DNA of 39,860 bases from a virus. The DNA lies in the IMG/VR virus record IMGVR_UViG_3300009146_000024, positions 1-39,860 of that record, one strand, 5' to 3'. Of this stretch, positions 3,949-39,850 are shown one piece after another. The translations under genes were made by a program, and so were the position numbers. Each line of letters starts with the position of its first letter. The first letter of the stretch is position 1. The notes below the pieces were generated by a model. The model ran no database searches. It saw nothing but the letters and a program-made list of their open reading frames with translations, and had not been told where the DNA came from.

Positions 3949-3969
3949 GCGCTTCAAGTTTTGAAACGC
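3949..3969 (+). promoter_or_regulatory. Palindromic motif copy a (TTCAA-GTT-TTGAA)
   Basis: TTCAA at 3953-3957 and TTGAA at 3961-3965 form a perfect 5-bp inverted repeat around a 3-nt centre. Outside one C/A mismatch the stem continues for 3 bp (GCG with CGC). The copy lies 34 nt before the ATG at 4000, in the gap after the previous gene. It is one of five related sites in the window. Confidence 0.5.
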
Positions 3970-3999
3970 CAACAATTGGAAGCCAGAAAGGAAAGACGT

Positions 4000-4293
4000 A
4001 TGGCAGCAGCGATCAATGTTCCGGACAAGCACGAGGCGAAGGTCAAGACCGTGACCCTCAAGGTGTCCACCGGTAAGGGCGACGACAAGTCAGAGCAGGA
4101 CTTCTCGGCCGACCTTCCCGCTTCCCTCGGCGACGCAGTATCTCTCCTGGGTGAGAAGGCCGTGTTCCGGCGCTTCATCAACGCCCACGTGGTGTACCTG
4201 CAGGGCGTCGAGCGCGGCAAGCTCCAGAAGGAGTCCGAGACCGAGCCGCGTGAGCGCAAGCGGGCCCAGTACCTCGAGTCTCTCGGCCTGTAA
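4000..4293 (+). CDS. Small hydrophilic phage protein
   Basis: 97 aa. The ATG at 4000 follows AGAAAGGAAAG. An upstream in-frame start at 3892 would run through the palindromic motif, so I prefer 4000. The protein has a basic C-terminal tail (ERKRAQYLESLGL) and a segment ASLGDAVSLLGEKAVFRRF. The layout resembles small phage proteins with a DNA-binding helix, but I see no diagnostic motif. It is the only gene in the rightward arm preceded by the palindrome. Confidence 0.75.
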   Translation: MAAAINVPDKHEAKVKTVTLKVSTGKGDDKSEQDFSADLPASLGDAVSLLGEKAVFRRFINAHVVYLQGVERGKLQKESETEPRERKRAQYLESLGL

Positions 4294-4300
4294 GGAAGTT

Positions 4301-4349
4301 GCGGGGGCCGTTGATGGCGATCCTATGGAAGACCGTTAATGGCCCCCGC
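4301..4349 (+). terminator. GC-rich inverted repeat after the 4000-4293 gene
   Basis: GCGGGGGCC at 4301-4309 pairs perfectly with GGCCCCCGC at 4341-4349 (9 bp) around a 31-nt loop, seven bases after a stop codon. No T-run follows, so it is not a classical intrinsic terminator. It could be a processing or attenuation structure. A TATTATAGG just downstream (about 4380) could be a -10 element, but no good -35 is spaced correctly. Confidence 0.35.
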
Positions 4350-4409
4350 CCTTGCGGCACAACAACAGCAGAAGTCCATTATTATAGGGGACTCGAAAGG
4401 CAACTACGC

Positions 4410-4589
4410 ATGCGAAAAGGCGTAGACGAGATGTCGGATGAGGAGCTGATCTCGGCGATATCAGAACTCCAAGCAGTCCGCGTACCAAGCAGCAAGCCCA
4501 AGCAACCTAAGAGACTCGATGAAAAACGGCCACCCAAGGACCCAGCCAAACGGACATGGCGAGACGACCTATTCGGCGAAGGGGAGTAG
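4410..4589 (+). CDS. Small charged protein
   Basis: 59 aa from the ATG at 4410, with GAAAGG before it. An in-frame TTG at 4299 would put the large inverted repeat inside the gene, so the shorter form is preferred. Acidic N-terminal half (DEMSDEELISAISELQ), then a basic Lys/Pro-rich tail ending in TWRDDLFGEGE. Probably disordered and protein-binding. Function unknown. Confidence 0.65.
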   Translation: MRKGVDEMSDEELISAISELQAVRVPSSKPKQPKRLDEKRPPKDPAKRTWRDDLFGEGE

Positions 4590-4593
4590 GGGT

Positions 4594-4857
4594 ATGATCT
4601 CCGCGCGCAAGATCCTGCGAGAGATCGAACTACTCGACTGGACCGGACACGTCGAACTTCCGCGCCAGGATATGGCGTGGCTCGCGTCCCAGTTGTACGT
4701 CAAGCTGAGCGAGACGGCTGCTGAGGTCTGTGACGCTTGCGACAAGGTGGCACCCCTCGTCCTCTCGACCGCACTCGGGAACATCTGCGCCGACTGCGTC
4801 GAGGACATGAACGACAACATCGACCAAATGAGGGAGACGCTGGGCAACGAGGACTGA
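4594..4857 (+). CDS. Zinc-binding-like small protein
   Basis: 87 aa. Two CxxC motifs (CDACDKVA and CADCVEDM, about residues 49 and 69) suggest a zinc ribbon after a helical N-terminus (MISARKILREIELLDW). The ATG follows GGGGAGTAGGGG. The stop TGA directly abuts the next ATG. Function unknown. Confidence 0.7.
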   Translation: MISARKILREIELLDWTGHVELPRQDMAWLASQLYVKLSETAAEVCDACDKVAPLVLSTALGNICADCVEDMNDNIDQMRETLGNED

Positions 4858-5100
4858 ATGACTGCCGAGGAAGCGATGCAATGGTTTCTAGAGCATCCAG
4901 AAGCATTCGAGAAGTGTCTACTCTGCAGTCGGCCTCCCACGTACATTGGCATGTTCGCCCCCGACAACTCCGTGAAGTTCGGTGGAATACCGGGCAAGCA
5001 ACGGTTGTACGGGTACGCAATTTGTGACGATTGCAAGAGCGAACCCGATTGCCAAGCACACGTTGAGCGGGTAATCTTCAAGAATAGACACGTCATCTAA
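4858..5100 (+). CDS. Small zinc-binding-like protein
   Basis: 80 aa with CLLCSRPPTYIGMF near residue 20 and CDDCKSEPDCQ near residue 58, which form a plausible four-cysteine zinc site. Between them is a strand-rich core (PGKQRLYGYAIC). It starts on the base after the preceding stop. The pattern recurs in phage proteins but has no function I know. Confidence 0.7.
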   Translation: MTAEEAMQWFLEHPEAFEKCLLCSRPPTYIGMFAPDNSVKFGGIPGKQRLYGYAICDDCKSEPDCQAHVERVIFKNRHVI

Positions 5101-5113
5101 CCGGGAGGAATAC

Positions 5114-6037
5114 ATGGGGGACGAGTTCTGGTTGGACTCCTCGAAGATCGAGGCGTTCCACCTGTGTCCACAGAAGTACGCCTACCGCTACGAGGAGCAT
5201 CTGGTTCCCGTAGACCGCAAGCGCGACTCGCCGATTATGTTTGGCGGGGCGCTCCATCGGTGCCTCGAGTCCTTGTATAAGGGGACAGCATTCGATAAAG
5301 TAGACTGCCCCTTGCATGAACCACAGAGCGGATGCTTTAGGTGCAAAGGGGTTCAGATTTCTCGCATAGCAGCGTTGCTGTTGGCGAACTACACCGACGA
5401 TCCCGAAGATCCCAAGGAGATCAGAACGGTTGATCGCGGTCTCGAGATACTCGCAGGCTACATAAGCAAGTGGGGCCGCGAACCGTTCAAGGTACTGGAA
5501 GTGGAGAAGCCGTTTGAACTCCACATGCAGTCGTACCACACGTTTGACGTGTTCGACTTCCTGTACATTGGACGCATCGACCTGATCGTCGACTACGAGG
5601 GCGTCCCGATGACGGTGGATCACAAATCTACCACCCGCTTTGGCATGGTGTTCGACGCGGGCTTCAAGCTCAGCGGTCAGTTCACCGGCTACATGAAGGG
5701 CGGTAGCACCCTGATCGGGAAGGAAATCACGGGGGCAATGAGCAACGCGATTCGCGTCACGACCAAGATCAGTGACGAGTCGTTCGCGCGGATCTTCACA
5801 CACCGGACTCCCGAGGAGTTCGACACGTGGCAGCGTGAAGTTCAGTACGTCGCGCGTACCATCATCGAGATGCGCGAGACGAAGCACTGGCCTAGAAGCG
5901 CACCGTTTGCATGTGGGGCGTACAACAGGATTTGCGAGTACTACCCCCTCTGCATCGCGGCCGCGCAGACACGTGAGACGTTGAAGCAGTCGGCCTATGA
6001 GGTTCTCGTGTGGGAACCAAGGAGAGCGGAGGAATGA
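5114..6037 (+). CDS. PD-(D/E)XK nuclease, Cas4/RecB-like, probable Fe-S cluster
   Basis: 307 aa. The N-terminal SKIEAFHLCPQKYAYRY is the typical opening of RecB/Cas4-family nucleases (first cysteine near residue 17). GGALHRCLE supplies the motif histidine, GRIDLIVDYEG the first acidic residue, and TVDHKSTTRFG the D-x-K part of the active site. Near the C-terminus ACGAYNRICEYYPLC gives three more cysteines (C-x6-C-x5-C). With the first cysteine these match the four ligands of the Cas4/AddB iron-sulphur cluster. It probably processes DNA ends in recombination-dependent replication with the ATPase at 6253. GGGAGG precedes the ATG. Confidence 0.9.
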   Translation: MGDEFWLDSSKIEAFHLCPQKYAYRYEEHLVPVDRKRDSPIMFGGALHRCLESLYKGTAFDKVDCPLHEPQSGCFRCKGVQISRIAALLLANYTDDPEDPKEIRTVDRGLEILAGYISKWGREPFKVLEVEKPFELHMQSYHTFDVFDFLYIGRIDLIVDYEGVPMTVDHKSTTRFGMVFDAGFKLSGQFTGYMKGGSTLIGKEITGAMSNAIRVTTKISDESFARIFTHRTPEEFDTWQREVQYVARTIIEMRETKHWPRSAPFACGAYNRICEYYPLCIAAAQTRETLKQSAYEVLVWEPRRAEE

Positions 6038-8111: not shown

Positions 8112-9552
8112 AATGATCAAGATTGCCGACGTCGTGGTCGAGGCAAGAATGCGGAAGACCTTCGGCGACATCGAGGGCCTTGCCGCGTCGATCGCACGGT
8201 TCGGGTTGCTTAACCCAATCGTGCTGGACGTCAACAACAACCTGATCGCGGGGCACCGGCGGCTGTTGGCCATGCGGCATCTGGGTTGGGCAGCGACGCC
8301 GTACCGCAGGATGGACCAGCTGGATCCGATCATCAGGAAAGAGATCGAGCTGGAAGAGAACATCAGGCGCAAGGACCTCGAGTGGCAAGAGGAGGTCGTT
8401 GGGCTCTACAAGCTGTACACCGCGAAGCAGGAGCGGTACGGCGAGAAGGGCAGCCCGGTAGCAGTTGAGGGCGGCTACGGAATCGAGGAAGCTGCGCGAG
8501 AGCTTGACCGGGCGACGGGGTCGATAAGCATGGACCTCGCGCTGGCCAAGGGCCTGTACGAGTTCCCTGAGCTTCTCGAGGAGAAGACCAAGAGCGCCGC
8601 GTTCAAGCGGTACCGGCGGCTGAAGGAGACTCAGCTCCGTGGAGAACTCGCCAAAAGGAAGCAAGCCACCGAAACTAACGGTCAGGTCGAAGAAGAAGAA
8701 GACTTCGATGTTGATGGCGAGAACGAAGAAGGCGCACGACCCCCAAGTGGAATACAGCGCCAGGCCATCAAAAAGGCCCTATGGAAAGGGCTGGGAGTCT
8801 TCTACCACGCTGACAGCAGGGACGTCTTGCGGCAACTCCCCGCCGAAAGCATCGACCTCATCGTCACGGATCCGCCATACGGAATTGGCCTCTACAAAGA
8901 AGGCGCCCCCATGTCGAGTTCAAAGTTTGCGGAGGCGCAAGGTGCAGGGTACGGCGACGATCCTAAAGAAATAATGGACATGCTGGACGAGACGTTCATG
9001 CATGCGGCTCGCTGTCTCAAGAAGGACGGTCATGCATACGTGTTCTTCCACATGACCAGGTACGAGCCGATCTACCTCATGCTCCGCAAACACTTCGGGA
9101 CGTGTGAGGCAACGCCGATCATCTGGATCAAGCAGACCACCGGAATCGGCGACCCGAACAGGGCGTGGGTCTACAGCTACGAGCCCTGCTTCTGGGTCAA
9201 CCGCGGTCGCGGGCTGGTCAAGCCGCAGCCGTTCAACACCCTCAAGTATGACACCGTATCGAAGAAGATCCACAGCGTCGAGAAGCCCGTCGCACTCATG
9301 CGACACCTCATCGAGGCCAGCGGCGTCACGGGAGAGCTCATCCTCGACCCGTTCGCCGGGAGCGGGAGCACCCTGGTCGCCGCTGCTCAGCTTGGAATGC
9401 GCTTCATTGGAGTCGAGAAGCACGAGGACTTCTGGAGGAGCGCGGTGGATCGTGTTGCGCGCGATCTGGCAAGTGAGGCGGTGTCTGACGCTCCGCCAGT
9501 TGTTGATCCTGAGCCTGGCAACGGTGATCAACCCGGCGAGACTGGTACGTGA
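8101..9552 (+). CDS. ParB-like nuclease domain fused to DNA (adenine/cytosine-N4) methyltransferase
   Basis: 483 aa from the ATG at 8101, with AAGGAG upstream. Residues about 5-110 form a ParB/Srx-like domain (GLAASIARFGLLNPIVLD, AGHRRLLAMRHLGW, EENIRRKDLEWQEE). After an acidic linker near residue 200 comes an amino-methyltransferase: DPPYGIG catalytic motif near residue 258, then the S-adenosylmethionine site DPFAGSGSTLVAAAQ near residue 418. Having the DPPY motif before FxGxG indicates the beta class. Fusions of this kind are common in phages. The role may be self-modification against host restriction or regulation; the target site is unknown. Confidence 0.9.
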   Translation: MPDEMIKIADVVVEARMRKTFGDIEGLAASIARFGLLNPIVLDVNNNLIAGHRRLLAMRHLGWAATPYRRMDQLDPIIRKEIELEENIRRKDLEWQEEVVGLYKLYTAKQERYGEKGSPVAVEGGYGIEEAARELDRATGSISMDLALAKGLYEFPELLEEKTKSAAFKRYRRLKETQLRGELAKRKQATETNGQVEEEEDFDVDGENEEGARPPSGIQRQAIKKALWKGLGVFYHADSRDVLRQLPAESIDLIVTDPPYGIGLYKEGAPMSSSKFAEAQGAGYGDDPKEIMDMLDETFMHAARCLKKDGHAYVFFHMTRYEPIYLMLRKHFGTCEATPIIWIKQTTGIGDPNRAWVYSYEPCFWVNRGRGLVKPQPFNTLKYDTVSKKIHSVEKPVALMRHLIEASGVTGELILDPFAGSGSTLVAAAQLGMRFIGVEKHEDFWRSAVDRVARDLASEAVSDAPPVVDPEPGNGDQPGETGT

Positions 9553-9571: not shown

Positions 9572-11926
9572 ATGTCGAGCCATCTACATGGCAAGGTTGT
9601 CCCGCCTAGCGGAACACCCGCCTGTCAGATAGCCTTCGTGGGAGCACGCCCCGGAGAGGACGAGTGTTATCGGGGTCGCCCGTTCACTGGTCCCTCCGGG
9701 GAAATGCTTTGGAGGCTAGCAGGCGTTAACAGGAGCGAGTGCTATGTCACCAACGTCCGCAAAGACTTCAGCAAGTACCACAGCGTACCAACCCCGACCG
9801 AAATTTCTGAGGTACTGCCCACTTTGCGGGATGAGCTTGGAGGAACGTCTGCCAACGTATTCGTTGCAGTCGGAGCCCAAGCTCTCTACGCACTCACGGG
9901 AAAGACATCTATTGAACAGTGGCGAGGATCAGTTCTCCCCTGTACTCTGGTGCCGGGGCGCAAGGTCATCGGTACGTATCACACTGCTGCCGCCCTCCGG
10001 GACTACCCGATAACGAACATCATCGAGCGTGATCTAAGGAAGGTGCGACGTGAAGCAGCCGATCGAACTATCCGTTACCCTCAGCGCACGTACACGATCA
10101 ACGCCTCCCTTGCAGAAACTGTTAGCTATCTCGACGGCCTTGGCGACCCTATTTCGGTGGATATCGAAACAATCGGGTTGGACTACCCTGTGTGTGTCGG
10201 TATCTCTGACCATCCCGGAAGGGCAATCTGCATCCCGTTTAGAGGAGGTCGTCTCTCAGTTAGCGAACTTGCGTACGTATGGCGTCGACTCCAAGATGTC
10301 TTTCGGACCCGCGGGATCATCGGGCAGAACATTCAGTTCGACGTCACACGTCTCGAGAACTACGGCTTCAGGTTCCCGAACATTGCGTTTGATACGATGC
10401 TTGCGCACCACCTCCTTTACCCCGAATTCGACCACGACCTCGGATTCATAGTAAGCATCTACACGAACGAACCGTACTACAAGCACGAAGCGAGTAGTGA
10501 TCTCTGGTTGTATAACTGCAAGGATGCAGCCTGCACGTACGAGTGCTACCAGGGCCTCAAATGGGAGCTCGAGAAAGTCGGACAAACCAAGTATTTCCAC
10601 GAACACGTGATGAGTCTCATCCGTCCGATCATGGCGATGCAAGATGCGGGCTTTGTCATTGATAAGGAGGGCCTGGAGAAGACTCGCGCTCGTATGGAAC
10701 TTGAGCGGGAATACTTACAACTTCAACTCAACCAGGCAGTCGGATTCGATATTAACGTCCGTAGTCCAATTGACCTGCGAAGACTTCTACACGACGAGCT
10801 ACGGCTACCGAAGCTCAAAATCACCAGAACTGGTCTACCTTCTACTGACGAGGACACACTCCGCAAACTGTCCTACGACTCTACTCAGCACGCCCATCTG
10901 TTCAAGCAGATCCTGGATGTACGCGAGCGACGTACTATGCTCAGCGGGTTCCTGTCTATGCAGACTGGGCCGGATGATAGGTACAAGGCGAACTACCTAA
11001 TTCACGGCACGAAGTCTGGGCGGTTGAGCAGTCGGGGACGAGGTCAGGGACCCCAGCTCCAGAACATCCCGATGCGAGCGCGGAAGATGTTCATCGCTGC
11101 TCCCGGGATGGTTCTGATCCAAGGGGACCTCAAGCGAGCGGAGGCGATGTTCGTAGCTTTTGATAGCCAATCGCCCCATCTTCAACAACTGTATACAAAC
11201 GCTCTGATCAATCCTTACTGCGAGTTCGCAACGCGCACACTGAATAAAGTCGTCACCAAGAGCGACGAGCTGTTGTACAAGACGTTTAAGACGGTCACGC
11301 ATGCCAGTAACTACGGGATGGCGTGGAAGAAGCTCATCATCATCCTAAGACTAGCGGGGGTAAACATAGATGACATCGAAATCAGAGGACTCTGGGGCGC
11401 AAAGCAAAAGGCAGAATTCCTTATCGAGTCCTACCACGCTCTCGCTCCCGAACTCAGGAGTATCTGGTATCCTCGTATTCGGTCAATTGTCCGAGCCACA
11501 CGTTGTGTGCACGACGCCTTCGGGCGCCGTCGTTTGTTCCTTGACCGAATGGATGAGGAACTCTTCCGCAAAGCATACGCACAGCGACCTCAGTCATCAA
11601 TTGTCTCCGTTACCAATCAAGGAGTTCGGACTCTCGTTCGAAACGGAAGGTCTGTTCTCGCCCAAGTCCATGACTCCATCGTCGCGGAAATCCCGGAAGA
11701 AGAAGCGTGGAAAGGGCTAGCAGAACTCGAGCAGGCCATGACCACACCTGTAGAGACGTGGGGAGGAACCATTACGATTCCGGTCGAGTTGAAGATCGGG
11801 TACGATTGGGGGAGTCTCTATGAAGTTGACATCCATAGCCAGGATCCTAGTGAAATCGGGGGAATACTGGGTAGGCTTCAACGAGTACGGCCACTACATC
11901 AAGACGGAGCCCTACATTGCCAATGA
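9572..11926 (+). CDS. Uracil-DNA-glycosylase-like domain fused to family A DNA polymerase
   Basis: 784 aa. Residues about 15-170 resemble family 4/5 uracil-DNA glycosylase: GARPGEDE, GRPFTGPSGEML, then GTYHTAAAL in place of the usual histidine-proline motif. The Fe-S cysteine pair of family 4 is missing. Residues about 195-350 are a 3'-5' exonuclease with SVDIETIG, GQNIQFD and YNCKDAAC. The polymerase follows, with motif A IQGDLKRAE, motif B KTVTHASNYG and motif C QVHDSIVAE (HDS instead of HDE). This is the replicative polymerase. Its last 35 codons overlap the next gene in another frame. Confidence 0.92.
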   Translation: MSSHLHGKVVPPSGTPACQIAFVGARPGEDECYRGRPFTGPSGEMLWRLAGVNRSECYVTNVRKDFSKYHSVPTPTEISEVLPTLRDELGGTSANVFVAVGAQALYALTGKTSIEQWRGSVLPCTLVPGRKVIGTYHTAAALRDYPITNIIERDLRKVRREAADRTIRYPQRTYTINASLAETVSYLDGLGDPISVDIETIGLDYPVCVGISDHPGRAICIPFRGGRLSVSELAYVWRRLQDVFRTRGIIGQNIQFDVTRLENYGFRFPNIAFDTMLAHHLLYPEFDHDLGFIVSIYTNEPYYKHEASSDLWLYNCKDAACTYECYQGLKWELEKVGQTKYFHEHVMSLIRPIMAMQDAGFVIDKEGLEKTRARMELEREYLQLQLNQAVGFDINVRSPIDLRRLLHDELRLPKLKITRTGLPSTDEDTLRKLSYDSTQHAHLFKQILDVRERRTMLSGFLSMQTGPDDRYKANYLIHGTKSGRLSSRGRGQGPQLQNIPMRARKMFIAAPGMVLIQGDLKRAEAMFVAFDSQSPHLQQLYTNALINPYCEFATRTLNKVVTKSDELLYKTFKTVTHASNYGMAWKKLIIILRLAGVNIDDIEIRGLWGAKQKAEFLIESYHALAPELRSIWYPRIRSIVRATRCVHDAFGRRRLFLDRMDEELFRKAYAQRPQSSIVSVTNQGVRTLVRNGRSVLAQVHDSIVAEIPEEEAWKGLAELEQAMTTPVETWGGTITIPVELKIGYDWGSLYEVDIHSQDPSEIGGILGRLQRVRPLHQDGALHCQ

Positions 11927-13400: not shown

Positions 13401-13436
13401 TCAGCCCTCCTCCGAGGGCGGGGTGGGGTGGCGCGG
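13401..13436 (+). terminator. GC-rich hairpin at the convergent gene ends (repeat copy R3)
   Basis: GCCCTC (13404-13409), loop CTCC, GAGGGC (13414-13419) is a perfect 6-bp stem followed by GGGGTGGGGTGG. It lies 16 nt after the rightward arm's last stop and overlaps the last codons of the leftward 48-aa gene. It is placed as a bidirectional terminator would be, but has no U-run. The same sequence arrangement recurs at 32998 and 38200. Confidence 0.45.
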
Positions 13437-13547
13437 TCTATCGCCTGTAAAGAGGGAGATCAACAGGATGAAGCCCGCAAGCGGAACGATGACCGCAAGC
13501 GATGCCAAGATCATCCCTAGGCCGAACAGGAACCCGCTGGTAAACAT
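13401..13547 (-). CDS. 48-aa membrane protein, holin candidate
   Basis: Start codon complement 13545-13547, stop 13401-13403. Residues about 5-32 are hydrophobic (SGFLFGLGMILASLAVIVPL and on to ISLF), long enough for one or two membrane segments. A hydrophilic tail (TGDRPRHPTPPSEEG) follows; part of that tail is encoded by repeat R3. It is the last gene of the leftward arm, directly after the ejection-protein genes. The palindromic motif (copy e) ends 8 nt upstream of the ATG. A lysis or virion-membrane role is inference. Confidence 0.6.
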   Translation of the reverse strand: MFTSGFLFGLGMILASLAVIVPLAGFILLISLFTGDRPRHPTPPSEEG

Positions 13548-13555
13548 CGTCCCGC

Positions 13556-13568
13556 TTCAATTATTGAT
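13556..13568 (-). promoter_or_regulatory. Palindromic motif copy e (TTCAA-TTA-TTGAT)
   Basis: One arm is perfect and the other has one substitution, giving a 4-bp stem. It overlaps the stop codon of the 705-aa gene and sits 8 nt before the start of the 48-aa membrane protein. It shares centre and right flank (TTATTGA, GCGG) with copy d. Confidence 0.4.
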
Positions 13569-15678
13569 CTGACAACGCCTGGGGATTCGCAACTGTCCCC
13601 ATGGGATCAGCGAGCATCTTGATGCCGGCGGGAGCGTCGGCTGGAATCAGTCCTTGGCCCGACTCAACCTGGCGCTTCCACTTCTCGAGCGGGCTAATAC
13701 CAAACCCGATGTCTTCAAGAATCTCCTCGGGGGAGATCCCCATCGACTCGGCGAGCCGTGTGCTCAGCCGGGTTATCCTATGTGGGCTGTCCTTCGCGTT
13801 GACCATCGCCTGGAGTAGCCTTGAAGACTTCGGCTTCAGCATCGCTCGGGCCACGTACTTCGGCACGGTCGCCAGGGCCGTGACCACCGCGACCTGTGCG
13901 GGCGACACATTGAATTGCGCTAGCTTAGCGGCGACTCCAGCCGCAGGTGCAATAATACTCCCGAGCTGGGTCATCGACAGCGCAGTCGTGCCGGCCTTGG
14001 TCGTGCGGCCCGTCTCGTTGAACCTGTCGAGCGCGTCGGCGTACCCCTCGTAATCCTTCACAAATTGCTTCCCGAACATGGCCTCCATGTACGCGCCGCC
14101 GAGCTTCTGGTGCTGGTTGAGCTGGACCCGCATCGCCGCAGGGTTGAGAGTCGGCACGCCGCTCTTGTTTTTGTTCGTGGCGTTCTCGGTAACGACTTCG
14201 GCCGTCGCAGCCTTGAGCTTCTGGAGTTCATCAGAACCGGGGCCAAGGGCCTTCTCGAGCCGCTTGTAGTCGTAGACGTCGCCCCTCTTGAGCAGATCGA
14301 GCGCATACTTCTTCGCTCCCTGCTTATCCATGCCGCCCACAAGGCCCTTAATAAACCCCGTGTTCAGCTGGCTAGAGTTCATGTCGTTGTCGACGTCCTG
14401 GAACTGTGTGTAGAGCTTCTTCGCGTCGTCGGGTAGCCGCTTCAATGTCGCAAAGTCAAGCGCCTTCGCCAACTCCGCTGCGCGCCATCGCTGCGCGTCT
14501 GGCAGACCCTCGTCCAGTGCGAGAGATCCCAGGGCGGTACGGGTAGACGCGATCTCATCCCAGTTTGCATAGTCGGACATTCTGCCGAGTAACGTGTCGG
14601 GCGGACTGGCCGGGTCGAGGTTGATCTTGAGGTTTTTAGTTCCCAAACCCCAGGGCATAACAACCGTCCCGGTTGATCCGCCCGTTTTCATGCTCTCAAG
14701 CTCGCCGATGGTTCGCACGGCGCTGTTGCGGAGCATCTGACCCGAACGAAGCTGACCGTCGAGCGCGGCGTGGATGGCGGAGCCCCAGTACGCGGGATCT
14801 ATGGTCTTACCGTACACGTCCCCCATCCCGCTGATTGCGTCTTGCAGCATGGCGGCTCGAGTCCCGCGCCACTTCTCGAACTCGCCCGCGTTCATGACGA
14901 GGCTGCCCCCGACGTTCTGCGCCCATCGGTAGACCGTGTTGTCGGAGAGATCGCCCATTCCGGCTACACCTTCTTCCGCAATCTGCCGTGCCATCGCGGG
15001 GTCGTAGCCAGCTTCTCGGAGCTTTCGAGCTTGCTCGGTGTTGTCGAGCATGGTCTCCAACTTCAAGCCCCGACGCATCGGGTTCCACCATTGCTTGCGT
15101 TGCTCGATCAGCTTTCCGTCGACGGTCTTTTCGTACACCTCCCGCACGCGGCTGTTGATCGTGTCCACCGTGCTTTGCCATTCGGGCGCAATACGGGGGT
15201 CCACCGGCATCATTTTCATCAGCCGGCTACCCATCTCACCCGTGGCAGCCCCCATGAACTGTTCGATGCCCGTGGGAATTGCGTGCTTTGCTGCGTCAGC
15301 AAACGAGTCGTCTCGACCCGAGGCCAAACCAGCGCCAAGTTCGGCAGCAGCGCCGACAGCGCCACTTGCCACTAGGGGAGCTGCGACCGCGGCCGCCTTG
15401 CCGACCATGCCCCCGCGAGCTAGCACCGGGGACACAACTCTACGAGTCGCCTCCTCAGCCGCGAGGCTACCCGCCCCAATTGCGAGGTTCTTCTTGAAGC
15501 TGTCCTCTGCCAACAGAGGGTTCGGTACGTTCTCCGCCGTGGCAGGCGGCACAGTTCCGCCCTCAAACGCAGCGGCTGCCCCTCCGCCCGTAGGCGCTGG
15601 AGTCCGTGTGGCCAGCTCTTCGTTGATGAGGCGTGCTCGTTCTTCGGCTGGTAGCTTCCTAAGTTCTTCGGCTGTCAT
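13561..15678 (-). CDS. Large internal virion (ejection-type) protein
   Basis: 705 aa. The first 70 residues are Ala/Pro-rich and disordered. A glycine/alanine-rich hydrophobic stretch (KAAAVAAPLVASGAVGAAAE, about residues 92-111) could insert into membrane. The rest is helical and charged, with another hydrophobic patch near residue 570 (TQLGSIIAPAAGVAAKL). Length, composition and position after two other helical proteins at the end of the structural cluster fit the DNA-ejection proteins of P22-like phages (gp16/gp20 role). No enzymatic motif is seen. Confidence 0.6.
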   Translation of the reverse strand: MTAEELRKLPAEERARLINEELATRTPAPTGGGAAAAFEGGTVPPATAENVPNPLLAEDSFKKNLAIGAGSLAAEEATRRVVSPVLARGGMVGKAAAVAAPLVASGAVGAAAELGAGLASGRDDSFADAAKHAIPTGIEQFMGAATGEMGSRLMKMMPVDPRIAPEWQSTVDTINSRVREVYEKTVDGKLIEQRKQWWNPMRRGLKLETMLDNTEQARKLREAGYDPAMARQIAEEGVAGMGDLSDNTVYRWAQNVGGSLVMNAGEFEKWRGTRAAMLQDAISGMGDVYGKTIDPAYWGSAIHAALDGQLRSGQMLRNSAVRTIGELESMKTGGSTGTVVMPWGLGTKNLKINLDPASPPDTLLGRMSDYANWDEIASTRTALGSLALDEGLPDAQRWRAAELAKALDFATLKRLPDDAKKLYTQFQDVDNDMNSSQLNTGFIKGLVGGMDKQGAKKYALDLLKRGDVYDYKRLEKALGPGSDELQKLKAATAEVVTENATNKNKSGVPTLNPAAMRVQLNQHQKLGGAYMEAMFGKQFVKDYEGYADALDRFNETGRTTKAGTTALSMTQLGSIIAPAAGVAAKLAQFNVSPAQVAVVTALATVPKYVARAMLKPKSSRLLQAMVNAKDSPHRITRLSTRLAESMGISPEEILEDIGFGISPLEKWKRQVESGQGLIPADAPAGIKMLADPMGTVANPQALSDQ

Positions 15679-20927: not shown

Positions 20928-22595
20928 TCACCCCCACAGACAGAGATCCCAGTGAGTCTTGTCCCAGATACCAAACGGAGCCTCGATCGGCCCCCTGGTG
21001 GGGAAGAACTCGCCAGAAGGAATGAACAGATCCGTGTAAGCTCTCCAGCTTGGCTTCGCGCCACTCGAGCTGGCGGGGTACCGGAATCGGTACCTCCGAA
21101 CAGGACTCGTCACGTTGAAGTCCACGAACTCGAAGCCCTGGTGTGAATATAGAGGAACCACAGGCGGCGGGGTCGTGAACGTCTTGCCCCGGTCAACACT
21201 TACTTCGACGAAATACGGAGCTTCCTGAAGGCGTACCGGATGGTTTTGCGATACCATGATACGTTCGAGTGTCCCGTTAGTCGCCGCCTCCTTGCCGTAG
21301 TACATATCAGGAGTGTCGAAGAACATTTCTACTCCGCCCGTTGAGTCGGCCTGCACGTAGTCCCCAACGATCCGCTCGTCTATGATAAAGAAGTCGTGAC
21401 TATGGCCCGCTACCAGGGTCGGGAAGATCTCCGGGTACGTCGCAAGATCGAAGACACGGGCCGCATTCTGGCTTATCTTTTGCGGCCACTCGTAGAACGC
21501 GGTCAGGCCCGGGATGATATCGCGGGTCCACGAGTCCCGAAGGTAGTCGTAGATCAGAACAACTACATCTCCGTTCTTCTGTGGGATCGCTAGGTGGTAC
21601 TCCTTGAAGGCCATGAACATCGTGGCGAATGGGAGAGTCTGCCAGTCTACGGTGTCTGGCAAATCCTTGTCGACGTCGACCAGCTGCCGAATGTAGGAAT
21701 GGATCGGCGTACCGATCGGGCTCAACTTCGCTCCATCCCACATGTACACGTTGAAGTCATTGGCGACGAAGATATGGAACTGACCCGCGCTAGCCAACGT
21801 CCACGGGAACGCGCAACCTAGCCCGTTGACTCGAGGCTGCGGCAGGAAGGGAGCCGTGTCGATACCTGTTACCACGAGGTCAGTGATCGAATCCTTCCTA
21901 TAGACCGCGAGCCTATCATTGAGTCGCTTTCCCCCCGTTATCGGCTCCACGCTTCCGTCGTAGAGCTCGAGGAATCCACCCTCGCCTCCCGTTGCTCCCC
22001 ACTTCGTGTAGTCTCCCTGCTTCGACCAGTGAATCCGGCTCGCCCCACTAACGCCCTGACCCGTGTCGGGCTGCTGATCCAGGAGCCGCATGAGGATCAC
22101 GCGGTTGTTGAAGTATTCTAGGAAGCATCCCTTCGGGGATGGTAGGACCTCGATGGTATTTATATTCGGGGCACTCTTATGCACCGCGGACACGGCCGAG
22201 GCCCGGCAGACAAACAGTCGCTCCTCACCCTGCGTCGACGAGAAGCGTACGTTCCAATCGGAATCGACTCCCAAGTCTACCGGGATCGCCGTGCTGTTGA
22301 ACGTGTAGCTAGCCTCGTTGTACAAGAAGACCACGTTGTCGGCGAGTGTACTGGCCCCGAGGGCCATCAAGGACTTCTCGCCTGTCGCGTCCGTTTGAGT
22401 GTTGAAGTCCATAAGACTTCGCGTTGCAATAACCTGCATCACGCGCGAGCGCCCTGGCGGCCGTAGGACGTTCCCAAACCGGAAGCGTACGTTCTGGCAC
22501 CACGGGGTGTACTCCGGGCCGATCATGTCGGCCACGGCGCTGGTGTACAACCCCTTCATAGGGATGAGGTTTCTGGTGTAGTTCTGCGCGCCCAC
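20928..22595 (-). CDS. P22 gp10-like tail hub / DNA stabilisation protein
   Basis: 555 aa from a GTG at 22595. Early NLIPMKGLYTSAVADMIG and QNVRFRFGNVLRPPGR, then repeated beta blades (FLYNEASYTFN, SKQGDYTKWGATGGEGGFLE, KRLNDRLAVYRKDSITDL), fit the propeller-like tail hubs that close the portal in short-tailed phages. It lies right after the adaptor gene as in P22-like maps. Only an AAGAGA serves as ribosome site; the palindromic motif copy d lies 11 nt before the start. Confidence 0.8.
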   Translation of the reverse strand: MGAQNYTRNLIPMKGLYTSAVADMIGPEYTPWCQNVRFRFGNVLRPPGRSRVMQVIATRSLMDFNTQTDATGEKSLMALGASTLADNVVFLYNEASYTFNSTAIPVDLGVDSDWNVRFSSTQGEERLFVCRASAVSAVHKSAPNINTIEVLPSPKGCFLEYFNNRVILMRLLDQQPDTGQGVSGASRIHWSKQGDYTKWGATGGEGGFLELYDGSVEPITGGKRLNDRLAVYRKDSITDLVVTGIDTAPFLPQPRVNGLGCAFPWTLASAGQFHIFVANDFNVYMWDGAKLSPIGTPIHSYIRQLVDVDKDLPDTVDWQTLPFATMFMAFKEYHLAIPQKNGDVVVLIYDYLRDSWTRDIIPGLTAFYEWPQKISQNAARVFDLATYPEIFPTLVAGHSHDFFIIDERIVGDYVQADSTGGVEMFFDTPDMYYGKEAATNGTLERIMVSQNHPVRLQEAPYFVEVSVDRGKTFTTPPPVVPLYSHQGFEFVDFNVTSPVRRYRFRYPASSSGAKPSWRAYTDLFIPSGEFFPTRGPIEAPFGIWDKTHWDLCLWG

Positions 22596-22605
22596 TCTCT
22601 TGACC

Positions 22606-22620
22606 CTTCAATTATTGAAG
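22606..22620 (-). promoter_or_regulatory. Palindromic motif copy d (CTTCAA-TTA-TTGAAG)
   Basis: A perfect 6-bp inverted repeat around a 3-nt centre lies in the 28-nt gap between the adaptor and tail-hub genes. On the minus strand the arm ends 11 nt before the GTG of the hub gene. Its plus-strand right flank (GCGG) matches that of copy e on the minus strand. Confidence 0.5.
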
Positions 22621-22623
22621 CGG

Positions 22624-23232
22624 CTACCTGAACCGGACGCCGATGGTCGTCTCGTATCCATCGTCTTCCAGCAGCGGGTTGTCCTGCCTCTGCCCCAACG
22701 CAGCATCCACAGCTCCCTTGTACGGTAGAGCCTCCTCAAATCGTTGCAGAGCCTCTAGGCCCTTGGCCACGGTGAGAACCACCAGGATCTCGTGCCACTC
22801 ACGCTCAAGCGGAATCGCCATCCCGTCCACCAGCTTGGGCAGCCGGCGGCGGTACCGCATGATCATCTGGTGATCTTGCGCGGGGATCGGATCGAGCTCT
22901 AGGTTGTCCTGGTATCGCGCGAACCGGGTCGGAATCCCCAGTGTCCGATACGTACGATCGAGCACCTGCCAGTGAACCTGGTCGAGCTTCCTCGTGGGAT
23001 CGCGGAGCGACAGGATGAACCAGAAGTCTGCGGGGACAGCTACTCGAGGCCCGTTGGCTGGGGCGACGAACTCATACAGAGCATCAAGCTCCCGAAAGCT
23101 AGCCTTCGGTGCCTGTGTCAGCTCCGTGAACGCGTCCATCAACCATTGGTCCACCCGGGTCGAGAGGTCCTGGCGGTTCCCCAGTCTCTTGACCACTTCC
23201 GTTTTCAGATCCCCGTAGGTCTGGACGTTCAT
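22624..23232 (-). CDS. Head-tail adaptor (P22 gp4-like)
   Basis: 202 aa. N-terminal TYGDLKTEVVKRLGNRQDLS and VDQWLMDAFTELTQ are the helical opening of gp4-like adaptors. The middle has beta segments (RVAVPADFWFILSLRD) and NLELDPIPAQDHQMIMRY. The C-terminal helix VLTVAKGLEALQRFEEA is also typical. It would bind the portal's lower ring and receive the tail hub encoded next. Confidence 0.75.
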   Translation of the reverse strand: MNVQTYGDLKTEVVKRLGNRQDLSTRVDQWLMDAFTELTQAPKASFRELDALYEFVAPANGPRVAVPADFWFILSLRDPTRKLDQVHWQVLDRTYRTLGIPTRFARYQDNLELDPIPAQDHQMIMRYRRRLPKLVDGMAIPLEREWHEILVVLTVAKGLEALQRFEEALPYKGAVDAALGQRQDNPLLEDDGYETTIGVRFR

Positions 23233-33063: not shown

Positions 33064-34599
33064 TCAATATCCCGTTGCACTACATATTCCTTCGTAGCGC
33101 GGCTGTTGCTCGTCGTCCGGTTCTGCACGACGCATGTCCTTGTCTGTGTCGGGGCTAACCCAGACTTGCGGGCCGTACGAAAGGGCGTCGAGCACGTCGA
33201 CCGTATCGCCCAGCGGAAACGCCTCAAATTCTTCGATCAGTACCTGACAGGTTGATCTCCGAATCCAAAGGCGTCCCCGCTCGGCGTACGGTTGCAAGCC
33301 GCGGATGCGAGTCTCTTTCCCTTCCTTGCTGCCCGGGCGAACTTCGCGCACGTTGAGCCACCGTCCCCGCCGCATACATTCGGCCTCGATGAAGCCTTTA
33401 AGAGCCCTTTGGTACGCCACTCCTTCTACTACGATCGCAATTGGATCCCACCTCGCCGCCATCTCGAATATCTTGTCGATCATCCGGAGTGGTTGGCACC
33501 GATCAGCCCACGCCTCCAACACCATGACTCGTTCGACTTCATCGAGGCCGGCGCACACGACAGCACTACGCGCGGCGTAGTTCTTCTCGCTGATTGCGGG
33601 GTCCACGAAGATACACGGCACAACCTTCGTAGCTTTCGGTTGACCGACCATCCGCAGACTTACGGTCCCCTCGCCATCTTGTTCCCACCCTTCGAGCTCG
33701 AAATACCTGAGCCACCCGGGGTCGAACGTGAGGCTTTCGGGGTCAAATGGTTCGTTCTGATACTGACAACTGAACTTGAAGTTCCCAATCTTATGCTTGA
33801 TACGCAGGAGTTCGTTAAGCGGGAACCTCTCGGACCAGAGGGTAGTTCCGTCCTTCGCAACAGCTTTCCTATGAAAGATGTCAATGTCACGCTCGTGCTC
33901 CATGATCCACGCGTACAAATCCCGGTGGGTCCACCGAGTTCCATACGTCTGAATCGGGTCGATGGGCTTCTCGAGCAACGACTCGCAGTACAGGTACCAG
34001 TCGATCGTCTTCTTCATGACGTCGACGCTCTCGCTAGCCTCCTTGCCCACGAGGTCGTCGAGCTTGATCATGTTATAGTGTCGGGAGACGACCGCTCCAC
34101 CGACGCCCATAACCTCAACTGTTGCTTCAGGGTAGTCTTTGGTCCTCGGGACCAACATCTCGCTTTCGGACCATTTCGTTTTCCCGATATCGGGGATCAG
34201 CTCAGGAAACAACCACCTGAAAAGTGTGGCTCTCTCGAACACGGCCTGAATCCTCCGAAGGAAGTGGCTCGCGTTCGTGGCGGTTTCATTCGCGATGAGC
34301 AACCGGATATTCGGGTTCGCGGCAATAAGCCGCACGGTATCGGCAATGGTCCAGACGGATGTCTTCAAATGGTCGCGCGGCACTAGGCCGAGCTTCCGTG
34401 TGCTAGGGCCCTCGATCCATCCGCACATGATCCCATGCAACGTCGGCGTGAGATCATGGAAGCCCACGAACGCCTTGGCCATCAGGAACGTTGATCGCTG
34501 GGCCTGCATCCGCAGATTCAGCCGAACCTCCTCACTCCGACGACTACTATCGCCGGTCTGTGAGGCGTACTCGGCCTGCTCGAAGTCGCTAGCAAACAT
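33064..34599 (-). CDS. terL: Terminase large subunit
   Basis: 511 aa. ATPase region: GLVPRDHLKTSVWTIADT is the Walker A-like motif of this family near residues 71-88, NIRLLIANETA the following strand, and YNMIKLDDLVGKE the Walker B region. Nuclease region: CIFVDPAISEKNY (first acidic residue) near residue 340, IAIVVEGVAYQRAL, and DVLDALSYGPQ near residue 468 (last aspartate). Together these cut and package DNA at the portal. The motif copy c lies 5 nt before the ATG and no normal ribosome site is seen there. Confidence 0.92.
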   Translation of the reverse strand: MFASDFEQAEYASQTGDSSRRSEEVRLNLRMQAQRSTFLMAKAFVGFHDLTPTLHGIMCGWIEGPSTRKLGLVPRDHLKTSVWTIADTVRLIAANPNIRLLIANETATNASHFLRRIQAVFERATLFRWLFPELIPDIGKTKWSESEMLVPRTKDYPEATVEVMGVGGAVVSRHYNMIKLDDLVGKEASESVDVMKKTIDWYLYCESLLEKPIDPIQTYGTRWTHRDLYAWIMEHERDIDIFHRKAVAKDGTTLWSERFPLNELLRIKHKIGNFKFSCQYQNEPFDPESLTFDPGWLRYFELEGWEQDGEGTVSLRMVGQPKATKVVPCIFVDPAISEKNYAARSAVVCAGLDEVERVMVLEAWADRCQPLRMIDKIFEMAARWDPIAIVVEGVAYQRALKGFIEAECMRRGRWLNVREVRPGSKEGKETRIRGLQPYAERGRLWIRRSTCQVLIEEFEAFPLGDTVDVLDALSYGPQVWVSPDTDKDMRRAEPDDEQQPRYEGICSATGY

Positions 34600-34604
34600 A
34601 GCGT

Positions 34605-34617
34605 TTCAATTTTTGAA
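34605..34617 (-). promoter_or_regulatory. Palindromic motif copy c (TTCAA-TTT-TTGAA)
   Basis: A perfect 5-bp inverted repeat with an AAA centre on the minus strand, flanked downstream by ACGCT and then the large-terminase ATG. It lies in the 26-nt gap after the 36-aa acidic gene. It occupies the place where a Shine-Dalgarno site should be, so the palindrome may act on transcription or on translation of terL. Confidence 0.5.
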
Positions 34618-34625
34618 CGGGCAAC

Positions 34626-34736
34626 TTACTTGCCCTCGTCGGCTTCCTCCTCGTCCTCCAGATCTTCCTTCAGCTGCTCGAGCTCCTCTTCCGAAAGCTC
34701 CTCGTCCTTGACTTCGTCCTCGGGCCTCTTGTTCAT
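34626..34736 (-). CDS. 36-aa acidic peptide
   Basis: ATG at 34736, stop 34626-34628. Almost entirely Glu/Asp/Leu/Lys (EELSEEELEQLKEDLEDEEE), probably an acidic helix. GGAGGATCTGAG provides the ribosome site. It precedes the large terminase. The plus-strand serine-rich frame over the same DNA is a shadow. Confidence 0.55.
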   Translation of the reverse strand: MNKRPEDEVKDEELSEEELEQLKEDLEDEEEADEGK

Positions 34737-36885: not shown

Positions 36886-36888
36886 GGC

Positions 36889-37002: not shown

Positions 37003-37014
37003 GGCACACTCCCT

Positions 37015-37578
37015 TTAGATCCACGTTAGCGCGTTGAGAAACTTCTCCCCGTACCCTGCAATGTCTCCTGCTCGATCGTGGCCATTCACAATGGTCCGTG
37101 CGTTGTACCAGTCGGTGATCGACTCCGTAAAGAACTGGCCGAGCCGCTTACCTGTGAAGTCTCCGTCGTACATCCCGGTGATGATCACCTTCTTGGCGAC
37201 CTCGGGGTCGAGCGCCAGGTCTGGGTTTTGGATCAGCGCGCCCCGCAGGCCCAACTTCGCGTCCATCTTTCGGTAGTTTTCTTCCCACGTCAGCTGCACG
37301 TAACCTCTGCCGAACCAGGGATAATACGGCTTTGATTTCAGGTACGTCTGCCCACCGTATTCCTTGATCGGCTGCATGGTCATGGCTGTTTCGTGGTACG
37401 TCGTTGCCAGAATGTATGCAAGACATCGGTCGTCTATGTGGTACTTCTCCGGTAGAGGAGGGTTCTCGTTGTCGTACCAATCCAAGAACACGTTACACCC
37501 GTCTACCTGTTGCTGGTTCATGGTCACGAATAGGTAATACTTGATGTTCTCGAAGAAGTAGTCTCGGTGAATGCTCAC
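37015..37578 (-). CDS. Endolysin, chitinase-like GH19 family
   Basis: 187 aa from a GTG at 37578 that overlaps the previous stop (GTGA). YILATTYHETAMTMQPIKEY carries the first catalytic glutamate (HETA) near residue 62. KSKPYYPWFGRGYVQLTWEE is the substrate-groove motif GRGYVQLTW typical of GH19-type phage lysins. PDLALDPEVAKKVIITGMYD follows as expected. It would cut cell-wall glycan at lysis. No signal peptide, so a holin would be needed. Confidence 0.85.
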   Translation of the reverse strand: MSIHRDYFFENIKYYLFVTMNQQQVDGCNVFLDWYDNENPPLPEKYHIDDRCLAYILATTYHETAMTMQPIKEYGGQTYLKSKPYYPWFGRGYVQLTWEENYRKMDAKLGLRGALIQNPDLALDPEVAKKVIITGMYDGDFTGKRLGQFFTESITDWYNARTIVNGHDRAGDIAGYGEKFLNALTWI

Positions 37579-38232: not shown

Positions 38233-38353
38233 GGGCCTTCTTGCTCTGCGCGACGAGGGCTCTGCCCCGACCGGTCCCCAAGCCCACGGTCTTGCCCTTC
38301 GGGCTGCATTCGCTGCCCTTGATCGGGTTTCCCTTTGGGGTTTTGTATCCCAT
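38219..38353 (-). CDS. 44-aa basic peptide
   Basis: ATG at 38353 with AGAGGTGA upstream, TGA at 38219-38221. Rich in Gly, Lys and Arg (GYKTPKGNPIKGSECSPKGK and RALVAQSKKARPRK). Ends in a four-base overlap with the next gene. Possibly a DNA-compacting or virion peptide; unproven. Confidence 0.5.
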   Translation of the reverse strand: MGYKTPKGNPIKGSECSPKGKTVGLGTGRGRALVAQSKKARPRK

Positions 38354-38365
38354 CGTCGCTCACCT

Positions 38366-38554
38366 CTATGGCCCTGGGCTTATGAGTTCCATGTCCTCGT
38401 ACAGAAACGTGGAGAGGCCCTCGACTCGCGCTAGCGGAGCCGTCCACTTGATCGAGAGGAAATCTAGGTGTTTTTCATGGACGGTGCCAACGCCGGGACC
38501 GTTGTCCTTGACAGCCGCGCCGACCGTGAGCGCTCGAGCTTCGGCTTCCGTCAT
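38366..38554 (-). CDS. Small beta-barrel-like hypothetical protein
   Basis: 62 aa from the ATG at 38554 that overlaps the previous stop (ATGA). TVGAAVKDNGPGVGTVHEKH followed by FLSIKWTAPLARVEG looks like a small SH3-like or KOW-like barrel of the sort that reads GxVxx...xxVxWd. The upstream extension of the frame is a shadow of the next gene. Function unknown. Confidence 0.6.
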   Translation of the reverse strand: MTEAEARALTVGAAVKDNGPGVGTVHEKHLDFLSIKWTAPLARVEGLSTFLYEDMELISPGP

Positions 38555-39090
38555 GGCAGTAGTCCTTCTTGCTCGAGCCGCCGTTGCTGCTCGTCGCGAT
38601 ATCGGACGGGCGCCTCGGGATCGTACTGCCCATCTTTCCACAGACCCACCCGGTCGCCCCACGCGTCGGCCGCGGCCACAAACGCCTCGCGGTCCTTCTT
38701 GGACATATGGTTGTTTACGTACGACCCGAACCCATCCTCCTCGTGCCACATGATCCCGCCGGCCATCAGCTCCTCGATGCCATCCACGGGATCAAACTCC
38801 ATTGGGTCGGACTTCTTCCAGTTGCGCATGAAGTCCTTGAGCCGCGCCCTATGCTCCTTGCGTTCGGCAGCGTTGAGCTTGACCTCGTGGCGCCGATAAG
38901 GGTCAGCGCGCTCGCTATCTGGTGCAGCTTTGCCAGTGTCGGCGTAGAGCTTGGCCGCGGCCTCGCGCAGCGCGGGTTCGGCGGCCCGGGGGGTCATCCC
39001 CCCGGGATCAACTGGCGTGGGAACCCGATTAGTGAGACTCCACGTTTTGGGGTCCTGACGGGTCCAGATGATATCGCCGAAACTAGGCAT
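38551..39090 (-). CDS. Hypothetical protein
   Basis: 179 aa. Disordered start (NRVPTPVDPGGMTPRAAEPA), then charged helices (HEVKLNAAERKEHRARLKDF, NNHMSKKDREAFVAAADAWG) and a C-terminal DEQQRRLEQEGLLP. GAGGTAA is the ribosome site. No family recognised. It is the second gene of the leftward arm. Confidence 0.6.
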   Translation of the reverse strand: MPSFGDIIWTRQDPKTWSLTNRVPTPVDPGGMTPRAAEPALREAAAKLYADTGKAAPDSERADPYRRHEVKLNAAERKEHRARLKDFMRNWKKSDPMEFDPVDGIEELMAGGIMWHEEDGFGSYVNNHMSKKDREAFVAAADAWGDRVGLWKDGQYDPEAPVRYRDEQQRRLEQEGLLP

Positions 39091-39123
39091 CGTGCTTACC
39101 TCGAGTGTGCCTTGGGGGATTGA

Positions 39124-39147
39124 CCACCCCGCCTCCCACCCCTTCCC
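39124..39147 (-). repeat. G-run element, copy R5
   Basis: Directly after the stop of the 39148-39651 gene the minus strand has the runs GGG, GGGG, GGG and GGGG separated by 1-4 bases, the standard G-quadruplex pattern. It resembles the G-run half of R2-R4 (GGAGGCGGGGTGG) but has no clear hairpin. It lies in a 57-nt gap between two leftward genes. Confidence 0.4.
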
Positions 39148-39651
39148 TCAGGTCTTCTGGCTCGTCTCGGCCGTGCGGCCGCCCTCGGCGCTCTGGGCGT
39201 GGGAATCCTGCGTCCGGCCGGCGGTCTGGGCCTCGGCCTTGCGGGTCGAGTTCAGGAGTTCGACGGCCTTGGCGCCAGCGTCCTTGGCGGACTTGAACTG
39301 CTCCTTGACCTTGTCGTTTTCGGGGTCCTTCTCGCCCAGAAGGTTCAGGACTCCTCGGACCTCGAGGCCGCTCGGCTGGGGCCTCAGGCTCAGGAGGGCC
39401 TCGGTCGCCGCGCGCTCGACCTGCGCCAGCGAGAGCGTGTCGTTGGGGTTCCCGTCGTCGCCAACGCCGGACTTGTGATCGGGCTCGTTTGGCTTGAAGC
39501 TCTCGCTGAGCTTGGCCTCGGTTGGCGTCCCCTTGGGCAGCTCTTGGGTCGACCCGCCTTCGGAGCCGGGGCCGCCCGCGTCGCCCTGCGACGTCCCAAC
39601 CTTCCCGTGCAATGCGCTGTCACCTTCTGCTTGCTTCGTTGACTGTGGCAT
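39148..39651 (-). CDS. First gene of the leftward arm, disordered hydrophilic protein
   Basis: 167 aa from the ATG at 39651 with AAGGAGGGC upstream. The N-terminal 70 residues are Gly/Ser/Pro/Glu-rich (GDAGGPGSEGGSTQELPKGT). The centre is helical (SLAQVERAATEALLSLRPQP, NDKVKEQFKSAKDAGAKAVE). The C-terminus is Ser/Thr/Gln-rich. No family recognised. It may be a virion or early-acting protein by position at the head of the operon. Confidence 0.6.
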   Translation of the reverse strand: MPQSTKQAEGDSALHGKVGTSQGDAGGPGSEGGSTQELPKGTPTEAKLSESFKPNEPDHKSGVGDDGNPNDTLSLAQVERAATEALLSLRPQPSGLEVRGVLNLLGEKDPENDKVKEQFKSAKDAGAKAVELLNSTRKAEAQTAGRTQDSHAQSAEGGRTAETSQKT

Positions 39652-39697
39652 CCCTGCCCTCCTTGTTTTCGGCTGAAAGCGCCATTTGTGGCTATGC

Positions 39698-39724
39698 AGT
39701 ATAGGTATGCAGGTCCTATGCCAA
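39698..39724 (-). promoter_or_regulatory. Possible sigma70-like promoter for the leftward arm
   Basis: On the minus strand TTGGCA (39719-39724) lies 15 nt before TATACT (39698-39703). The -10 is good, but the spacing is 2 nt shorter than ideal. It points to the first leftward gene, whose ATG is 46 nt downstream with AAGGAGG in between. Confidence 0.4.
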
Positions 39725-39837
39725 TGGCCTCGGCCTCGCGAGCACAGATTGAAACTGGGCGAAGCCGGGGATGTCTGCATCCCTCCGCTTGATCGTCCAA
39801 GCGCCAGCTTGCTGTAACTTGGAGTCTTTGTTTCCGC

Positions 39838-39850
39838 TTCAAGGTTTGAA
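39838..39850 (+). promoter_or_regulatory. Palindromic motif copy b (TTCAA-GGT-TTGAA)
   Basis: A perfect 5-bp inverted repeat with flanks CCGC and ACTCG, ending 10 nt from the right edge. If the map is circular it lies ahead of the rightward arm's first genes. On the minus strand it is 187 nt upstream of the first leftward gene. Confidence 0.45.

Follow-up and report, generated by a model that had tools for sequence, protein, structure and literature searches.

Several described systems share features with the element treated here, the palindrome TTCAA-N3-TTGAA of a phage record from IMG/VR (IMGVR_UViG_3300009146_000024), whose whole length of 39,860 bases was analysed and is referred to as the window. 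The operator OB of KorB, from plasmid RK2, is a 13-bp 5-3-5 palindrome, TTTAGCSGCTAAA, present in about a dozen dispersed copies, and the half-site of chromosomal parS is TGTTTCAC. KorB is a ParB-family clamp which silences promoters from distal operators (PMC11790492). Cluster O mycobacteriophages (Corndog) carry 34 dyads of 17 bp, 7-3-7 palindromes TGTTCGG-N3-CCGAACA of unknown role, which are unoriented, lie mostly off promoters and are located inside genes in about a third of the cases; their binder was left undecided among three candidates, one of them the ParB-like gp90 encoded by these phages (PMC4351075). Besides, fusions of a ParB-CTPase domain to an N6/N4 DNA methyltransferase are described as frequent in phages, with only a role in anti-defence or phage-host interaction suggested for them (PMC12704722); the part consulted names neither a function nor a DNA site. 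A literature search, not a complete one, gave no paper that connects fusions of this kind with dispersed palindromes.

The window encodes a protein of family c41 with the domain combination described in PMC12704722, and the palindromes are probably parS/KorB-like docking sites for this protein. The likeness to KorB and OB lies in the ParB CTPase-fold, in the helix-turn-helix (HTH) and in the dispersed intergenic palindromes found here; on the other hand, KorB has not been described with a methyltransferase, whereas c41 has one after the HTH, and the phage sites have a TTCA half-site with outer contacts on each half. As regards chromosomal ParB-parS, the predicted fold of c41 residues 1-191 matches Spo0J/ParB/Noc and the parS half-site resembles the TTTCA half-site of two of the phages compared (G017 and G018), but parS lies near the origin and is accompanied by ParA, whereas the phage sites cover the whole genome, have TTCA-TGAA spacers of 4-6 nt and go with a ParB part fused to a methyltransferase. 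The Cluster O dyads are alike in being dispersed, unoriented palindromes with a ParB-like protein in the same phage, and differ in their number (34 or more) and in their share inside genes, the sites of the window's clade being mostly intergenic. The stoperators of Cluster A mycobacteriophages, also short sites repeated through the genome, are asymmetric and oriented with transcription (as described in PMC4351075); sites of that kind were not found in the window's clade, where half-sites are symmetric and without orientation bias.

Dispersed palindromes in the window and its relatives

An earlier note on this DNA had listed five copies of the palindrome, and the window scan found all of them at the positions given, four exact (3953, 22607, 34605 and 39838) and one with a single mismatch (13556). 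Allowing up to one mismatch there are 5 matches in the window, against a mean of 0.60 and a maximum of 4 in 100 dinucleotide shuffles, so the five copies are real and far above chance; with two mismatches the count (12, against 9.3 by chance) is near chance level, and hence only the five copies stand out. The distances to start codons were also correct: 5 nt (TerL, 33064-34599), 8 nt (13401-13547), 11 nt (20928-22595) and 34 nt (gene at 4000). The similar flanks that had been pointed out proved to be part of the element, since a symmetric matrix made from the sites describes a 39-bp element with the half-site Y-N-N-S-T-W-G-S-N-G-C-TTCAA, in which roughly one turn of the helix separates the inner from the outer contacts. 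The four complete window copies score 32.3, 12.3 (13556, with one dead half), 35.8 and 28.3 bits, and no equally good match exists elsewhere, the maximum outside the copies being 7.4 bits over the whole window. The sites are as follows:

3940-3978, no strand assigned: 39-bp dyad site a, core TTCAAGTTTTGAA at 3953-3965; 32.3 bits; before the rightward gene at 4000, relatives having a site near the c36 gene too
13543-13581, no strand assigned: 39-bp dyad site b, core TTCAATTATTGAT at 13556-13568; 12.3 bits (halves 13.3 and -1.0), one half degenerate
22594-22632, no strand assigned: 39-bp dyad site c, core TTCAATTATTGAA at 22607-22619; 35.8 bits; before the gene of a 555-aa virion protein, kept there in relatives
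34592-34630, no strand assigned: 39-bp dyad site d, core TTCAATTTTTGAA at 34605-34617; 28.3 bits; fills the gap before the large terminase gene
39825-39860, no strand assigned: dyad site e, core TTCAAGGTTTGAA at 39838-39850; cut by the contig end, complete half 18.6 bits; late/early divergent region

Early genes run rightward and late genes leftward, and they meet near 13.4 kb, at the junction that holds site b, the core of which overlaps the stop codon of the gene upstream; four relatives (G003, G007, G008, G014) have better copies than site b at this same convergent junction. The large terminase named in the earlier note was confirmed (terminase of phrog_38). For its "tail hub" the only match was to phrog_3287, a family with the generic label "virion structural protein". 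The end of a very small and strongly acidic reading frame (window 34626-34736, minus strand) lies just ahead of site d and the terminase; acidic tails of this sort are found ahead of terL in relatives too, although they did not cluster as one protein family. Matches of the form TTCAA-N4/5-GCTGAA, located ahead of the scaffold-like gene c6 and within the capsid gene, were not counted as sites, because this form turns up again where the outer motif is lacking and has the appearance of coding sequence.

A terminase search of viral contigs gave 24 relatives (71-91% identity), most of which have the palindrome about 5-18 nt ahead of terL, the distance being 5 or 11-12 nt in most of them. Whole records of relatives were fetched and their genes were called with a simple in-house hexamer caller, the gene calls being approximate. 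Relatives of 46-49 kb contain about 5-10 copies each. Nearly all of these are intergenic, and the same junctions are used repeatedly: those ahead of terL and of the 555-aa virion gene, the convergent early/late junction, the divergent region and the surroundings of the early gene c36. The sites are thus kept at the same gene starts as in the window; a further site, after the capsid gene, recurs in relatives and is absent in the window. Over the window and 14 relatives, 79 sites reach at least 14 bits, against none in the reversed sequence (reversal is a valid control for the matrix and not for palindromes, for which its use was discarded), and 116 of 147 core matches are intergenic. One clade (G011, G012, G014, G015) has an extra central base at nearly all its sites, the spacer passing from N5 to N6, as expected if one trans-acting protein reads all of them. 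A search of viral contigs with the fuller pattern found only one clade member. The window record is probably incomplete, because close relatives measure 46.6-48.8 kb and have early genes (c19, c45) that are missing in the window, which ends just past the core of site e.

Duplex DNA, RNA and promoter readings of the element

The element reads as a symmetric protein-binding site in duplex DNA rather than as an RNA hairpin, because its halves are largely independent, the innermost pair is often broken, the orientation ignores transcription and one clade shifts from N5 to N6. When halves were shuffled among 76 sites, the agreement between them was mainly due to the shared consensus: a modest excess of pairing at -1, -2 and -6 (p 0.004-0.014, uncorrected) could be explained by a subset of perfect palindromes, and the innermost pair was broken more often than chance (p 0.998). 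The terL site has no covariation (54% of the cells pair, below the shuffles), asymmetric copies have no orientation relative to transcription, and Rfam gave no RNA family match in the window. Extended hairpins had been considered on account of compensatory-looking flanks, and half-shuffling showed that the symmetric consensus explains most of them.

RNA hairpins before start codons, controlling translation or mRNA processing, are therefore very improbable for the window sites, for which this suggestion of the earlier note was not borne out. It is true that three copies lie 5-11 nt ahead of starts without a Shine-Dalgarno sequence, that folding is better than in shuffles (z -3.2) for the copy ahead of the 555-aa gene, and that a covarying stem has one of the early-region copies of relatives at its apex. 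Nevertheless, to the broken innermost pairs and the lack of covariation at terL it must be added that four of the five window copies fold no better than shuffles, that sites lie between convergent genes too, and that distant phages use other palindromes with fixed spacers. The covarying stem belongs only to that different, early-region copy: eight relatives, and not the window, have a 24-bp stem with one copy of the site at its apex, upstream of the early gene c45 in those checked. The copies of this stem are:

L035, 4080-4155, plus strand: 24-bp-stem copy
L033, 6748-6823, minus strand: 24-bp-stem copy
L048, 2837-2912, plus strand: 24-bp-stem copy
L051, 8011-8087, minus strand: 24-bp-stem copy
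L041, 18657-18733, minus strand: 24-bp-stem copy
L045, 7915-7991, plus strand: 24-bp-stem copy
L031, 1-56, minus strand: 24-bp-stem copy
L136, 2655-2731, plus strand: 24-bp-stem copy

Compensatory changes were found at 14 of the 24 pairs in seven aligned copies (0 of 500 shuffles), and Rfam gave no match; the stem may be a structured RNA of a new kind or a DNA cruciform.

Hairpin promoters for an N4-type virion RNA polymerase, or for another phage RNA polymerase, are scarcely credible. A 5-bp stem with a 3-nt loop ahead of gene starts had brought them to mind, but no such polymerase was recognised among the larger annotated genes of the window, the sites are symmetric and randomly oriented with regard to transcription, their halves lack compensatory pairing, start codons are only 5 nt away and some sites lie at convergent junctions. 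A -35/-10 promoter deduced from the spacing of the TTGG and CATAG outer elements was also rejected; its transcript would begin past the terminase ATG.

The distribution of the sites bears on a further reading, according to which they are transcriptional operators (KorB-like or stoperator-like) where RNA polymerase is stopped, at operons or within them, by c41 or by some other regulator, gene control being the main role. Sites occur roughly every 5-8 kb along this group of uncultured phages, and in most genomes their spacing is more regular than that of random gene junctions (combined p 1e-9, though the genomes are related), individually so in G003, G007, G017, G018, G045 and G036 (p 0.001-0.011). 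Such even coverage would suit whole-genome loading better than a small regulon, and regulation is also compatible with it. The operator reading is a real, although lesser, possibility: sites are kept immediately before terL and the 555-aa virion gene, they mark operon boundaries including the divergent late/early region, and a ParB-family clamp such as KorB can silence promoters from afar (PMC11790492). On the other side stand the sites at convergent junctions (11 of 115), those after the capsid gene, the lack of orientation and the even spacing. The earlier proposal of an operator or promoter for some regulator thus holds as far as a symmetric protein-binding DNA site is concerned, whereas a purely promoter-linked operator is less likely because the sites are evenly spaced and one lies at the convergent early/late junction.

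A ParB-HTH-methyltransferase as candidate binder

The best candidate binder is encoded in the window itself; it is the c41 protein, with the following parts:

8113-9552, plus strand: proposed cognate protein, family c41, 479 aa; ParB CTPase-fold, ParB-type HTH and N6/N4 DNA methyltransferase
8113-8382, plus strand: ParB_N (CTPase-fold) domain with motifs AGHRR and EENIRRKDLEWQEE; from PHROG ParB-like families, alignment and Foldseek
8383-8583, plus strand: ParB-type helix-turn-helix, predicted recognition helix ATGSISMDLALAKG; AlphaFold helices 91-109, 124-130 and 135-150, and Foldseek
8764-9468, plus strand: N6/N4 DNA methyltransferase domain; PF01555 (E 5.9e-30), Foldseek to TTHA0409, CcrM and M.BceJIV

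The GxRR and ENxxR motifs of ParB are present in the c41 alignment (AGHRR, EENIRRKDL), and ParB_N falls below the Pfam cut-off in the window copy and above it in several homologues. The sequence-only match to HTH_ParB is weak, and an HTH after the CTPase fold is supported by the predicted helices and Foldseek. The AlphaFold model is of moderate confidence (predicted local distance difference test, pLDDT, about 74-76). As a whole it matches DNA methyltransferases, while residues 1-191 match Spo0J, pNOB8 ParB, Noc and Caulobacter ParB (Foldseek probability 0.99-1.00), in an alignment that extends over the ParB DNA-binding domain; the template modelling scores (TM-scores) of this part are low, about 0.35, probably because relative domain positions differ.

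Family c41 was singled out by phyletic profiles. A whole-genome palindrome test (the palindrome tests are Poisson approximations) was significant at 1e-3 in 19 of 34 ParB-HTH-positive genomes and in none of the 14 complete or nearly complete negatives (hypergeometric p about 2e-4); G010, G012, G021, G048 and G052 were set aside, since c41 lies or may lie outside the part of the record covered. Five positives missed by this strict test (G003, G006, G007, G014, G023) pass an intergenic test, which none of the six negatives submitted to it passes at 1e-2. Four nearly complete genomes without a ParB homologue (G019, G028, G029, G030) have no repeated palindrome at 1e-3.

The palindromes found in an unbiased scan for repeated gapped palindromes are uniform within a lineage and differ between lineages: TTTCA-N5 (G017, G018), TATTCA-N4 (G026, G027), TTGTCCA-N4 (G020, G021), TGTCCA-N4 (G036), TTGTCC-N6 (G024, G025) and TTGTAC-N6 (G022, G023). 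The spectrum of TTCA-Nk-TGAA has a sharp peak at k=5, with k=6 in one clade and k=4 in another, and no peak in 14 controls. A search with c41 as the sole query brought in other phages, many with a very distant terminase, some of which share the core (G033 TTTCAA-N3, G044 and G045 TTCAA-N3, G046 TTCAAA-N1, G034 GTTCA-N5, G048 TCAAT-N1) and others of which have their own palindromes (G035, G036, G041, G042). A Desulfofustis phage has six copies of GTCCCA-N3 (GTCCC-N5; 4e-19) and Vibrio phage VS-ABTNL-3 four copies of CAATCG-N6 (1e-7). A distant terminase relative, L059 (MW202554), contains a 35-nt dyad of another kind, around GCAAAATTTTGC, in four copies (17575, 29543, 36090, 44119) and a differently built ParB-annotated protein at 573-1853.

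The sequence of the site follows the ParB-HTH half of c41, and not the terminase, portal, capsid, polymerase or primase. ParB-HTH scores against the window are 28-44% of self in TTCA-N5 genomes (G033, G034, G037, G038, G044, G045, G046) and 14-25% in genomes with other palindromes; with terminase, portal and capsid the ranking of the two groups is reversed, and neither polymerase nor primase tells them apart. Most TTCA phages, G046 being an exception, have the predicted recognition helix GS(I/V)S(M/Q)D, and several others an xxVxEA-like one, and between the 13-mer and 14-mer clades AT changes to SG just before this helix. The families detectable across distant palindrome-bearing phages are primase, terminase, polymerase, c41, exonuclease, a virion protein and partly Sak4; of the families tested, none but c41 binds DNA site-specifically. 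Among DNA-binding families, c41 alone was present in phages with palindromes and absent from phages free of them (19 of 34 against 0 of 14 genomes). The small terminase (c3) was rejected as binder, being undetectable in most of the distant palindrome-bearing genomes.

It is unlikely that the binder is some other DNA-binding protein, of phage or host origin, with a specificity that happens to go along with the replication module. Small early genes of unknown function are undetectable across distant genomes, and the Cluster O study listed three DNA-binding candidates without deciding between them (PMC4351075), but among the families of the window's clade found in distant palindrome-bearing phages only c41 is both site-specific and tracks the sites, and the variation of the sites between phage lineages argues against one fixed host factor.

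The genome as a whole is that of a podovirus-like phage (SU10-type portal, DUF3987 primase, phrog_38 terminase). A uracil-DNA glycosylase domain is fused to a family A DNA polymerase at 9572-11926 (plus strand), and a possible endolysin at 37015-37578 (minus strand) has a weak match to class I chitinase/glycoside hydrolase 19 (E 1e-3, below the cut-off). A host search with the terminase profile gave no match.

Proposed docking of the fusion protein on phage DNA

The docking of c41 is supported by the sites themselves, their symmetry and spacing, their uniform lineage-specific classes, their co-occurrence and co-inheritance with the ParB-HTH half, and the ParB-like predicted fold. Several points weigh against it: i) six of the 34 ParB-HTH-positive genomes (G016, G039, G040, G049, G050, Mel-JY34) have no convincing palindrome in either test, ii) the palindromes of G037, G038 and MW202489 are only marginal and G043 has only an unrelated-looking ATTG-N2 repeat, iii) the p-values lack independence, since the genomes are related, and c41 itself served in part to select the genome groups, iv) no ParA was found among the genes scanned, no search aimed at ParA having been made, v) c41 could be accompanied by some other early protein that escapes detection over such a distance, and vi) the sites of the terminase and virion genes, 5-12 nt from start codons, also suit an operator. 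The most awkward case is G016, because its ParB half is close to that of the window (relative score 44) and it has no TTCA-N5 peak; its record is a 30.7-kb fragment.

If c41 does dock at these sites, the predicted HTHs of two subunits would read the two TTCA half-sites, and the same domain or a second one would make the weaker contacts further out (T at -7, C/G at -8, pyrimidine at -11). With intergenic sites every 5-8 kb or so, c41 could load along the entire phage genome, and the ParB nucleotide-binding motifs that it has kept point to a sliding or spreading clamp, which may take the methyltransferase, or a block to transcription, with it along the phage DNA. In this scheme the binding of c41, its use of nucleotide, the sliding or clamp loading, the methylation with its target and the biological purpose are the parts that we infer. 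It is also conceivable, as a tentative extension, that the clamp-methyltransferase loads at the phage sites, slides and methylates the whole phage DNA, host DNA without sites being spared; such self-marking, if true, would represent a kind of DNA modification that is targeted through parS-like sites and spreads.

Should the link between fusion and palindrome hold, the targets of these fusions would be readable directly from genomes, because each lineage shows its own palindrome and spacer. The same logic would give a binder for the unexplained 17-bp dyads of Cluster O, for which gp90 is, by analogy, a natural candidate; its Catdawg copy (L287, 3179-4687, minus strand; 502 aa) has ParB_N and no methyltransferase in Pfam. 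Besides, ParB specificity would become open to direct test, since nature offers about ten variants of the site, each with its recognition helix.

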